A DNA stretch of 64,000 nt from Methanohalobium evestigatum Z-7303. GTDB taxonomy: Archaea; Halobacteriota; Methanosarcinia; Methanosarcinales; Methanosarcinaceae. A model generated the notes under the pieces. That model did no database searches, was not told the DNA's origin, and saw nothing but the letters and a program-made list of their open reading frames with translations. The first letter of the stretch is position 1, and each line of letters starts with the position of its first letter. The stretch spans positions 1,381,423-1,445,422 of the forward strand of contig NC_014253.1 of NCBI RefSeq assembly GCF_000196655.1. Reading direction: 5' to 3'. Position numbers and translations under genes: made by a program. Below are positions 41,671 through 45,420 of the stretch, piece by piece.

Positions 41671-42411
41671 TTAACTGTTTATCAGGTTTTTGTATGTCTG
41701 TTTAAAACTGCCAACATCGGATATGTCTTTTTTTAAATCATCAAATACAATTTTCCCTTTGTCCAGAATTATGGCTCTGTCACACAATTTAAAACTCTGC
41801 TCAATATTATGCGAAACAATTAATTTGGTGGTTTTTTTGCTATCAAGTTCTTTTAAAATGTTTTCAAATACGTTGACAGCGTTCTGGTCAAGTCCTGTAT
41901 AAGGTTCATCCAGAAAAAGGACTTGCGGTTCGTGTATCAATGTTCTTGCGATGGATAGACGCTGTTTCATACCTCTTGATAATTCACTTACCCTGTCAGT
42001 TGCTCTGTATGTTATACCTGTTTTTTCCAGAAGGTATTCTATCCTCTTATCCAGAATATCATTGTCTATACCATACATCTGTCCGTAAAAACGCAGGTTC
42101 TCTTCTGCAGTAAGGTCATTGTACAGAAAAGTTTCATGTGAGAGTATACCTATAGATTTCCTGATGTTTGATGAATCGGTAGATACATCAAATTTGTTGA
42201 TTGCTACACTTCCCTCTGTTGGAGTCCACAATGTTGATAATATCTTAAAAAGTGTTGTTTTGCCGGCTCCATTGGGTCCGTATATGGCTACTGTTGAACC
42301 TTTTTTTACTGAAAAACATATATTTTTTAATACCTGATGGTTGCCAATGGATTTGGAAAGATTTTTAACAGATATAACATCATCCATCGAGCCAACATTA
42401 TCCGCAAACAT
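41671..42411 (-). CDS. ccmA: ABC transporter ATP-binding protein CcmA
   Basis: This 246-residue ABC ATPase has Walker A YGPNGAGKTTLFK near residue 45, the signature ELSRGMKQRLSIA near 143 and Walker B VLFLDEPYTGLD near 165. With CcmB and CcmC downstream it is the CcmA component. An internal ATG at 42387 (MDDVISVKNLSK) may be the real start. ccmE and ccmF are not in the window. Confidence 0.9.
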   Translation of the reverse strand: MFADNVGSMDDVISVKNLSKSIGNHQVLKNICFSVKKGSTVAIYGPNGAGKTTLFKILSTLWTPTEGSVAINKFDVSTDSSNIRKSIGILSHETFLYNDLTAEENLRFYGQMYGIDNDILDKRIEYLLEKTGITYRATDRVSELSRGMKQRLSIARTLIHEPQVLFLDEPYTGLDQNAVNVFENILKELDSKKTTKLIVSHNIEQSFKLCDRAIILDKGKIVFDDLKKDISDVGSFKQTYKNLINS

Positions 42412-42434: not shown

Positions 42435-43107
42435 TTAAAACAGACCAAAATCGGCAAATTTTGGTCCACCTACATCAGCATCGTTGTTGTAACCCCTGCT
42501 TTCCCAGTATCCTCTATATGAATGGTTAACAACTTCTATTCTTTTTATCCATTTAGCCCATTTATATCTGTATTTCCCTTCTGCAACTACCTGAAGTGGG
42601 AATCCTCGATGTGGTGGGAGAGTTACATCATTGATTTTATAAGCAAGGATTATGTCGTTTTCCAGCAAATAATCCATTTTGAGTAGGTTGAAAAACCATC
42701 TACGCCATAAAAGATAACAGTATTTGCATTTTTATTAGCTCCTACTTTATTAAACAATGTTTCAATTGGTACACCTGTCCATTTGGCAGTGAACCTCCAC
42801 CCATCTACAGAAAACAGTTGAACTACTTTTGACTTGCTGGGATAAGAAGTGATTTGTTTATAGGTGAAATTTGCAGGTTCTTCTACTTCCCCCTCAATTT
42901 GCAGCCGGTAAGATTCTTTATCGATTTTCTGTGTACCTTTAATAGCAAAATTACCCTGTTCAGAAAGGCACTGTTCAGTTAAGACAATTTTTCATATAAT
43001 TACAAATCTAAATCATTGTGCTTAGAAATACCAATGACCTAATATAAATTAATATGTTTTATTAACTGAACAGTACCTTCAGAAATAGGAGTTAGATTTT
43101 TACCCTA
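42435..43107 (-). pseudogene. Sulfite oxidase-like molybdopterin oxidoreductase pseudogene
   Basis: The frame encodes GKNLTPISE, then after the MITE QGNFAIKGTQKIDKESYRL, then WRFTAKWTGVPIETLF and TVIFYGVDGFSTYSK, and after a one-base frameshift near 42680 MDYLLENDIILAYKIN...LPPHRGFPLQ to the stop. This is the sulfite oxidase/YedY molybdopterin domain. Three lesions are seen: the 5' end is replaced by IS copy 3, a 111-bp MITE lies inside, and there is a frameshift. In addition the Mo-ligating Cys that precedes V-x-G-W appears as Ser. Removing the MITE and one 8-bp repeat restores the reading frame. Confidence 0.88.
42967..43077. mobile_element. 111-bp MITE with IS6-like inverted repeats
   Basis: The ends are 16-bp inverted repeats, GGCACTGTTCAGTTAA at 42967-42982 and TTAACTGAACAGTACC at 43062-43077, with one mismatch. 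An 8-bp direct repeat TTCAGAAA flanks it (42959-42966 and 43078-43085). GGCACTGTT-type ends and 8-bp target duplications are features of the IS6 family. There is no ORF inside, so it is non-autonomous and needs a transposase elsewhere. Confidence 0.88.
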
Positions 43108-43114
43108 GTGAACT

Positions 43115-43136
43115 ACCACTTGGCTAAAGACCAAGT
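43115..43136. repeat. IS right-end hairpin, copy 3
   Basis: CCACTTGG and CCAAGTGG form an 8-bp stem around the loop CTAAAGA. Relative to copy 2 (5932-5953), both strands of the stem changed at several pairs while pairing was kept. Confidence 0.78.
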
Positions 43137-43156
43137 GGCTTCAGAAGGAGTTTGCT

Positions 43157-44401
43157 TTACCGACATGTGTTGCCGAAAAACCTTATCCTTCCTGGATGGT
43201 TCACACACCCACTATCGGTTATCCCTGTAAGGGAATCACCGACTACTTTTCTTAATATGTTCAATGCTCCATTAACATCGGCATTGAGCAATTTACCAGT
43301 AGAAGACTGGAACAATCCCCTCTTGACTCTTTTACCCATGTATTTTTGGTGTTTTTCAATGGGTTCTAATGCAAGAGCATCGGTTTTACTGGTATATGCC
43401 TCATCAACTTCTATACACTTGATACCGTAGTACTCACATTTAGACCGAAGTTTCTGTTTGAATTTGCCAAAGGGTATAGTTTGAAAAGTCTGGTTATTTT
43501 TTTTACCCATATTGGAGTTTTGTTTGATATTTTTCAATTCTCCGATTATGATGTTGCCGATGTTATTATCTATGCAGTGTTTTATGATATAGTTAACACT
43601 CTGATTCATAAAATCGTTAATCTTGTTTTTCCTTTTCTCGAACAACCAGTTCAGTTTCTGACCTGATTTAATACCCTGTTTATCATATATAGACTGCAAC
43701 CCACTTTTGACTTTGTTCCACCAACGGTTATAAGATTTCAAACCCCTGCCTTCTATGATGAAGGCAGTCCCATTGGTATCTACACTGGTTGCAAAATTGT
43801 TCACTCCCAAATCAATAGATAGATGTTTATTGTAGTCTAAATCGACTTTTTCACCATTATCTCTGTAAACATACTCTATCTCAAACCACTGTCCGTTGTA
43901 CTTCGGGATTATCCTTACTTCTTTTATGTGTTTACCGGTTATGTTTTCAGGTAACTTGAAGTACAGGTATCTCACACCATAATTCTTGTAAAATTCTCTA
44001 CCCATAGACAATCTGATGAATCCATCGTTGATTTTGAACATATCTTTTGGGAAGATACATACAAATTTAGAGTCTTTGGGTAGGTATTCAGGTATCTTTA
44101 CTGGTCGGTTGTAGTTACCTCTTTTTCTCTCGCCCAGAACCCTGAAAAACGATTTCATATTCCTGTCTACTACTTTCATGGTCTGCTGTGCAACCTGTGA
44201 AGGCAGCATCTTGTAATTCTCATTATCTTTTACCAGATGATAAGCGGATTCATGATTGAGGTATTTTGAATTGTCAAAATAGTATTGTCTTGTAGTGTAC
44301 AGAGTAAAATTGTAAAGGTTTTTAGACAATTTAGTAATCCTTTTCAGGACTTCATACTTCTGTTTATCCGCTTTAACATGGTTTTTCTGGGTGAGATACA
44401 T
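43157..44401 (-). CDS. tnpB: TnpB (OrfB) family protein, copy 3
   Basis: This 414-residue protein is a near twin of the one at 5974-7224, with the same RuvC residues (Asp in LSIDLGVNNFA, Glu in IIIGELKNIK, Asp in LLNADVNGAL) and the same lack of zinc-ribbon cysteines. It lacks the Gly-Asn pair found near residue 190 of copy 2. The frame is intact. It is divergent from tnpA in the same element. Confidence 0.92.
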   Translation of the reverse strand: MYLTQKNHVKADKQKYEVLKRITKLSKNLYNFTLYTTRQYYFDNSKYLNHESAYHLVKDNENYKMLPSQVAQQTMKVVDRNMKSFFRVLGERKRGNYNRPVKIPEYLPKDSKFVCIFPKDMFKINDGFIRLSMGREFYKNYGVRYLYFKLPENITGKHIKEVRIIPKYNGQWFEIEYVYRDNGEKVDLDYNKHLSIDLGVNNFATSVDTNGTAFIIEGRGLKSYNRWWNKVKSGLQSIYDKQGIKSGQKLNWLFEKRKNKINDFMNQSVNYIIKHCIDNNIGNIIIGELKNIKQNSNMGKKNNQTFQTIPFGKFKQKLRSKCEYYGIKCIEVDEAYTSKTDALALEPIEKHQKYMGKRVKRGLFQSSTGKLLNADVNGALNILRKVVGDSLTGITDSGCVNHPGRIRFFGNTCR

Positions 44402-44452
44402 TATATTATATATTTTATAATCAAAATTATTTAAATGTTATTGTTGGTTATT

Positions 44453-44864
44453 ATGGCTATGGATTATGATAGAAGCAATCACAGCAAGTATTTGTTAATG
44501 TATCATATCATATCATATCATATTTGTCTGTAAATATCGCAGAAATGCATTAATGGGATTTGAAGATAGTTTAAAAGATATTTTAATTACAATTGCATCA
44601 AAATCAGATTTTGATATTGTAGAAATGGAATGCGACAAAGACCATATACATATTTTAGTGAAATCCAAACCAAAAATTAGTATATTATCATTTATTAGAA
44701 AATTGAAGCAAGAATCAATATACCTTATTTGGAAAAACCACAAAAAATATCTAAAAATATATTATTGGAATGAAAATACTCTATGGAGTGATGGATACTT
44801 CTGTTGCACAATAGGAAACATAAGCAAAAAAACAATTACAGAATATATACGCAGTCAAGGTTGA
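44453..44864 (+). pseudogene. tnpA: IS200-type Y1 transposase TnpA, frameshifted
   Basis: The first frame (ATG at 44453 or 44459) reads MDYDRSNHSKYLLMYHII and then stops at 44527-44529 after four ATCAT repeats at 44502-44521. The second frame, shifted by one base, continues KYRRNALMGFEDSL to the stop at 44864. It includes the HUH motif DKDHIHILVKS and the C-terminal tyrosine in TEYIRSQG. Two repeat units, or five, would restore one continuous 130-residue transposase. TnpA normally cuts single-stranded DNA at the element ends. Confidence 0.88.
44502..44521. repeat. ATCAT pentanucleotide repeat (4 units) inside tnpA
   Basis: Four perfect tandem ATCAT copies lie in the codons for the start of the TnpA core. 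Copy number decides the reading frame: 2 or 5 units are in frame, 4 are not. Confidence 0.92.
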
Positions 44865-44887
44865 CATCCGGATTAGACGGTATTCAT

Positions 44888-44960
44888 CCCCGTGTTTCAT
44901 TTCAAAGAAATGAAACTCGCATTAAATCTACGATTTGATGCGATGCTGAAGACATCGGGG
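44888..44960. repeat. Enlarged left-end hairpin, copy 3
   Basis: The outer stem CCCCG/CGGGG corresponds to CCCTG/CAGGG of copies 1 and 2, with a compensated T-A to C-G change. About 50 extra bases sit after CCCCG and contain two additional hairpins: GTTTCATTTC/GAAATGAAAC (loop AAA) and CGCATTAAATC/GATTTGATGCG with a mismatch. Confidence 0.7.
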
Positions 44961-45003
44961 TTTTCTACCTTCTGTTATTATAAAAAGTTAAAATGGTGAT
45001 ATA

Positions 45004-45420
45004 TCAGACATTTACCACTTCCAGCTTTTCTATATCTGCTATATCCTCCCCTTCTGCGTCTGATAGTGATGCACCAATCAATTTATAATTTGGAACACCG
45101 GTATTTCCGGTCTCATCAGAAACAAGTGCATTAGACCATGGACTATTTGGCATATATGCATAGCCCCTGTGTGGATTCTCAGAATCGGATTCTACAGCTT
45201 TTACAACTACACTACCGTATTTGTTTTTCAAATATACTGTATTTCCACTTTTTATACCCATTTTTTCCATATCATTACTGTCTAATTTAATGATAGCTGA
45301 CAAATCCTTATATTCATCACCAAAAAGCGAACTTTCAAGAGCTTCACTCTGGAATATATCTCTGTAGGTGATGATTTTAATGTCGTATTCAGGGGTTTCC
45401 AAAAATTTCCCAAAATCCAT
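45004..45420 (-). CDS. fwdD: Formylmethanofuran dehydrogenase subunit D
   Basis: The 138-residue protein has the molybdopterin dinucleotide-binding fold of FwdD/FmdD: DLSAIIKLDSNDMEKMGIKSGNTV, GYAYMPNSPWSNAL and the C-terminal VPNYKLIGASL. It binds the cofactor together with subunit B in the enzyme that interconverts CO2 and formylmethanofuran. Its start overlaps the fwdB stop by one base. IS copy 3 ends only about 20 bp downstream. Whether the metal is W or Mo cannot be told. Confidence 0.92.
   Translation of the reverse strand: MDFGKFLETPEYDIKIITYRDIFQSEALESSLFGDEYKDLSAIIKLDSNDMEKMGIKSGNTVYLKNKYGSVVVKAVESDSENPHRGYAYMPNSPWSNALVSDETGNTGVPNYKLIGASLSDAEGEDIADIEKLEVVNV

Follow-up and report, generated by a model that had tools for sequence, protein, structure and literature searches.

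Introduction

The described proteins closest to the gene studied here are the catalytic molybdoenzymes of the SUOX (sulfite-oxidase) family, YedY/MsrP, SorA and SoxC (PF00174), in which molybdenum is ligated by a cysteine. The same fold is found in the PruR proteins, which lack the Mo-ligating cysteine and bind pterins without molybdenum. PruR proteins are about 170 amino acids long, carry tryptophan at the cysteine position in a truncated site, and are encoded beside dcpA (PMC13259868). Proteins of this fold can thus have a role without the cysteine. Two kinds of mobile elements are also relevant, the IS6-family MITEs and the IS200/IS605 elements with TnpB. Among the latter, ISDra2 has the target TTGAT and IS608 the target TTAC, and in the published TnpB model the guide is supplied by the sequence beside the right end and the flanking motif by the target site (PMC8612924).

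We analyzed a stretch of 64,000 nucleotides (the window) from the genome of Methanohalobium evestigatum Z-7303, which consists of contigs of 2,242,317 and 163,915 bp. With a probability of roughly 85%, as judged from sequence comparison, the window holds a recently inactivated gene for a predicted exported lipoprotein of the sulfite-oxidase fold, belonging to a paralogue lineage with serine in place of the Mo-ligating cysteine. The Ser protein resembles YedY/MsrP, SorA and SoxC in its domain match, its fold match and a CVEGW-like motif region that aligns with that of YedY, whereas it differs from them in the absence of the Mo-ligating cysteine, in its shorter length (214 amino acids) and in its lipoprotein-type signal. 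Like PruR, it is a predicted exported SUOX-fold protein without the Mo-ligating cysteine, and PruR proteins are among its structural matches. Unlike PruR, it has serine instead of tryptophan at this position and keeps most conserved residues of the family, in contrast to the truncated PruR site.

A sulfite-oxidase-like pseudogene with two insertions and a frameshift

The pseudogene is located on the minus strand between an FmdD-like gene and a cluster of CcmA-like, CcmB and cytochrome c assembly genes (Table 1). Its read-through protein matches PF00174 with 119.8 bits (curated cut-off 24, E 1.2e-34). An earlier note on this DNA had described an oxidoreductase pseudogene of this kind, disrupted by an IS end, a MITE and a frameshift. 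All three lesions are found where it had placed them. The reading frame shifts at a T-run of the plus strand (42677-42680), in agreement with the missing base that had been suspected in an A-run near 42680, and the peptide after the shift, MDYLLEN, agrees with that of the relatives. Removal of 42967-43077 together with one 8-bp repeat restores the frame as predicted and gives GKNLTPISEQGNF..., with 32 residues identical to the uninterrupted gene of G029, a genome of the same genus. Intact relatives, which the note had proposed to look for, are present in Methanosarcinaceae and include the homologue in Methanohalophilus halophilus (G031). A broken gene by itself is ordinary and represents routine genome decay.

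Table 1. Features at and around the pseudogene, with positions in the window.
Feature	Coordinates	Strand	Basis or remark
Downstream neighbour, ABC ATPase (CcmA-like)	41671..42411	-	about 24 bp past pseudogene stop; followed by CcmB and cytochrome c assembly genes
Pseudogene 3' part, post-slip frame (MDYLLEN...ADFGLF, stop)	42435..42677	-	PF00174 on read-through protein
A-run (T-run on plus strand), one base short	42677..42680	-	frame changes between ...FSTYSK and MDYLL; relatives read YSTSLELDYLL
Pseudogene middle part (QGNFAIKG...GFSTYSK)	42678..42958	-	
Ser codon TCT at Mo-ligating Cys position (SVDGW)	42809..42811	-	relatives read CVEGW
Target duplication, copy 1, TTCAGAAA	42959..42966	.	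single copy in G029
111-bp MITE, probably IS6-family-type, TIR GGYACTGTTCAGTTAA	42967..43077	.	
Target duplication, copy 2, TTCAGAAA	43078..43085	.	G029 has one copy
Last upstream gene piece before IS end (GKNLTPI..., with SE from duplication)	43086..43107	-	
IS200/IS605-type element (IS copy 3), right end 43108, 1.87 kb	43108..44979	-	ends set by comparing copies
tnpB, RNA-guided nuclease family	43157..44401	-	NF040570 guided_TnpB 179 bits; PF01385, PF07282
tnpA (Y1 transposase), frame broken by 10 extra bases, ATATC repeat near 44500-44526	44453..44864	+	PF01797 from profile position 25; alignment with copy L068
TTTTAT beside IS left end	44980..44985	-	same place as TTTTAT in G029 leader
Upstream neighbour, molybdopterin dinucleotide-binding protein (FmdD/FwdD-like)	45004..45420	-	PF01568

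Serine at the Mo-ligand position

The serine codon (TCT, 42811-42809 of the minus strand) aligns with the cysteine of YedY/MsrP in phmmer alignments, as does the serine of the M. halophilus gene. In the alignment of homologues, nearly all sequences read CVEGW, and both the window gene and the intact M. halophilus gene read SVDGW. Homologues were searched in 238 genomes of the class and their sequences taken from the best-matching loci. Among the 87 distinct homologue sequences scored at this site, 84 have cysteine, two have serine and one has tyrosine. A pattern for the Ser motif is matched only in the window genome and in M. halophilus among 393 genomes of the phylum; the latter has the one intact Ser gene found, and the same TCT codon is used in both. 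In a separate contig collection, neither the M. halophilus Ser protein nor the motif pattern gave a match, but M. halophilus itself would be expected to match, so that this result counts neither for nor against. The reading of serine at the position of the Mo-ligating cysteine is confirmed by YedY/MsrP and by the homologues alike, and the cysteine that characterizes the catalytic SUOX-family molybdoenzymes is replaced in both Ser genes. The earlier note had counted the serine as a further defect of the gene. It cannot be regarded as damage, given that the same serine is borne by an intact homologue from a different methanogen; a natural relative of this structure was what the note itself had named as speaking against its view, and M. 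halophilus provides it as far as the serine is concerned.

Selenocysteine, which was considered because of "TGA" flags in the hit table, was set aside, as the translations have ordinary Cys codons and the stops lie at the gene ends. A literature search of partial coverage found no report of a natural serine at this position. The tyrosine is found in a second copy in G021 (L053:6777-7529), an open frame without the family's usual lipobox N-terminus.

Probable common origin of the Ser genes

Seven residues are common to both Ser genes, each of which occurs in no more than 5% of the remaining rows of the alignment. When shared rare residues were counted in 1763 pairs with identities of 66% or less, the Ser pair had seven, the next-best pair four, and the mean was 0.19. 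In G023, a gene remnant corresponds to approximately the first 53 codons. It has 77% identity to the Ser gene of M. halophilus, with a score of 226, and the next-best score, 120, is obtained with the 5' end of the G029 gene. A quick tree that included the Cys column grouped the two Ser genes (SH-aLRT 95). In a careful tree with the Cys column removed, they were not grouped in the free search, and constraining them together gave a tree that was 1.8 log units better and not rejected (p-AU 0.59). The tree being indecisive on the Ser pair, common descent rests on the shared rare residues. On these comparisons it is well supported that the serine was very probably inherited from a Ser-type ancestor and would be ancestral to the paralogue.

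The two genes might instead have acquired serine independently, as second copies under weak constraint that each lost the cysteine. The tyrosine copy (L053) is such an independent loss of cysteine in a second copy, and the Ser genes stay apart in the careful tree when it is searched freely, but the pair shares more rare residues than any other of the comparable pairs, both genes use TCT, and the first and second matches of the G023 remnant are the two Ser genes. We consider independent origin unlikely and inheritance from a Ser-type ancestor the better reading.

Since the Cys-type copy is also kept in both Z-7303 and M. halophilus, the Ser gene represents an additional paralogue. For the pair of Ser genes, pN is 0.24 versus a pS of 0.87 (the latter saturated), which resembles Cys-type pairs. 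The differences between them are mostly synonymous, indicating that the Ser variant has been maintained, and this substitution pattern shows purifying selection on the Ser lineage before the insertions. Of the 48 positions that are most conserved, three are changed in the M. halophilus Ser gene, each of them also in the window gene, in which two more are changed. The M. halophilus Ser gene scores 134.2 bits against PF00174. The AlphaFold model of its protein has a mean pLDDT of 73.5, and the fold matches of this model are headed by SorA and YedY (1XDY/1XDQ), with PruR proteins (7KOM, 7KOS and 7KP2) ranked lower.

It is also worth recording that Cys-type copies are frameshifted or contain stops in several relatives (L054, L055, L057, L058, L059, L060 and L065), which suggests that genes of this family often decay.

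Mobile elements at the locus

The IS copies have sequence in common through 43108 (minus strand ...GTAGTTCAC) and diverge past this position, and the gene sequence restarts at 43107. This comparison of copies sets the junction at 43107/43108 and bears out the claim that the 5' end of the gene was lost at IS copy 3; the ATG, the lipobox and the missing codons are carried by G029. The left end, TTTTAT/AATAAC, is found in five further IS copies and the right end, GTTCAC, in all listed copies, with varying flanks. The element has a Y1 TnpA and a TnpB, with fixed ends 3' of a short target and no target duplication, as in the IS200/IS605 elements with a guided TnpB, which likewise insert 3' of a short T-rich site. 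It differs from ISDra2 (TTGAT) and IS608 (TTAC) in using a TTTAT-type site (PMC8612924), and the window copy further differs in its frameshifted tnpA and in the loss of 162 bp of the target.

In G029, the gene reads GTTTAT immediately ahead of the base at which the window gene restarts past the IS right end. The 162 bp between the two target-like sites of G029, comprising 30 bp of leader and 44 codons, are absent from the window, and with them the start codon, the signal peptide and the first 44 codons. The positions of TTTTAT and GTTTAT in G029 place both IS junctions at IS605-type target sites, with the intervening DNA gone. The element may have entered 3' of one TTTAT, as IS605 elements usually do, and a deletion to the other TTTAT would have taken place after or together with the insertion; this would be the simplest account. 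If the published TnpB model (PMC8612924) applies, an intact allele of the window gene would be a target of the TnpB of IS copy 3. Elsewhere in the window genome, an IS605-type right end lies directly after the stop of the intact Cys-type paralogue (L045:6259-6930; L135, G000 C1:12220-12256) and is absent there in G029. Together with about 90 near-identical upstream bases, this right end recurs at two further places.

The MITE is inserted 30 bp inward of the IS junction. Its terminal inverted repeats of 16 bp, GGYACTGTTCAGTTAA, are matched at 15 of 16 positions, and it is flanked by the 8-bp duplication TTCAGAAA, which is single in G029. The genome has eight additional copies of the 111-bp element, full or partial, several of them with target duplications. 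With up to two mismatches allowed, the TIR pattern occurs at 34 places in the genome, versus 3 for a reversed-pattern control. Identical 16-bp TIRs bound elements of 763-765 bp that encode a transposase, for which the best NCBIfam match is IS6 (94.5 bits, under the cut-off of 125) and the Pfam match DDE_Tnp_IS240 scores 27.4 bits (cut-off 27). The MITE may have been moved by this resident IS6-like transposase. Like IS6-family MITEs, it has an 8-bp duplication and no coding sequence, and its TIRs are those of a resident element that may belong to this family; no notable difference from such MITEs is seen.

Timing and order of gene loss

The flanks of the locus in G029 are colinear with those in the window and 97.4% and 98.4% identical to them. 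Between fmdD and ccmA of G029, both insertion sites are empty, the ATG and lipobox (SGC) are intact, the 8-bp sequence occurs once, and the codons through GKNLTPISEQGNFAIKGTQKIDKESYRLQIEG give a protein identical to the window read-through. With flanks of 97-98% identity, the empty sites and the intact start in G029 indicate that the IS and MITE insertions are recent, and the common ancestor of G029 and Z-7303 most likely had the gene start, the lipobox and empty sites. When the two diverged, the gene was probably still intact. This comparison dates the two insertions; the site of the A-run frameshift falls in a stretch missing from G029.

The G029 gene is itself broken. Its sequence runs up to the left end of a TnpB element different from that in the window and picks up again, about 85 codons further on, at the right end of that element, full copies of which occur elsewhere in both genomes. 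The G029 assembly is fragmented, and the two contig ends at the gene are 97% identical in their overlap with no exact join; the breakage is likely to be a single insertion with deletion. Since the window gene is uninterrupted at the break site of G029, the gene was lost separately in each strain.

The earlier note had supposed that the gene was abandoned first and then became a landing site, in which case function was lost through the Cys-to-Ser change and the frameshift, and mobile elements landed unopposed by selection. Beyond the changes shared with M. halophilus, the window gene differs at two further positions (Y98F and G140R, as numbered in the comparison of conserved positions) that are at least 97% conserved in Cys-type relatives, and the sister copy in G029 is also broken, both of which would fit such an order. 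However, the serine is common to the intact M. halophilus gene, the Ser lineage was under purifying selection, and the insertions are younger than the split from G029, where the sites are empty and the start intact. We therefore set this order aside as improbable, in favor of a gene that was recently inactivated within a maintained Ser lineage. It is just as improbable that the frameshift, a single-base change within a short one-base run, is a sequencing error and the insertions alone are real, and the verdict would be unchanged, as the gene is broken anyway at the IS junction and by the MITE.

Discussion

The Ser protein presumably had a function, either as a molybdenum enzyme with altered ligation or as a non-catalytic pterin binder. 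This function would have been dispensable, given that G029 too has a broken copy and G023 retains only a remnant. We tentatively propose, at somewhat less than even odds, that some halophilic methanogens keep a second SUOX-fold lipoprotein with a natural serine, which might be a Ser-ligated molybdenum enzyme or a non-catalytic pterin binder. Next to the M. halophilus Ser gene, we noticed an open frame joining a rubredoxin domain and a thiamine-pyrophosphate enzyme (L048:7750-9660).

What is modestly new here is the Ser-for-Cys paralogue, the pseudogene itself being ordinary. The locus also calls for caution, in that an active-site change in a pseudogene should not be read as damage before intact relatives have been checked. 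Cys-to-Ser mutants have reportedly been made in animal sulfite oxidase (chicken C185S and human C207S), and the inherited serine is a natural counterpart of these mutants. The Ser paralogue lets one ask whether the fold works, or serves another purpose, without the Mo-Cys bond.
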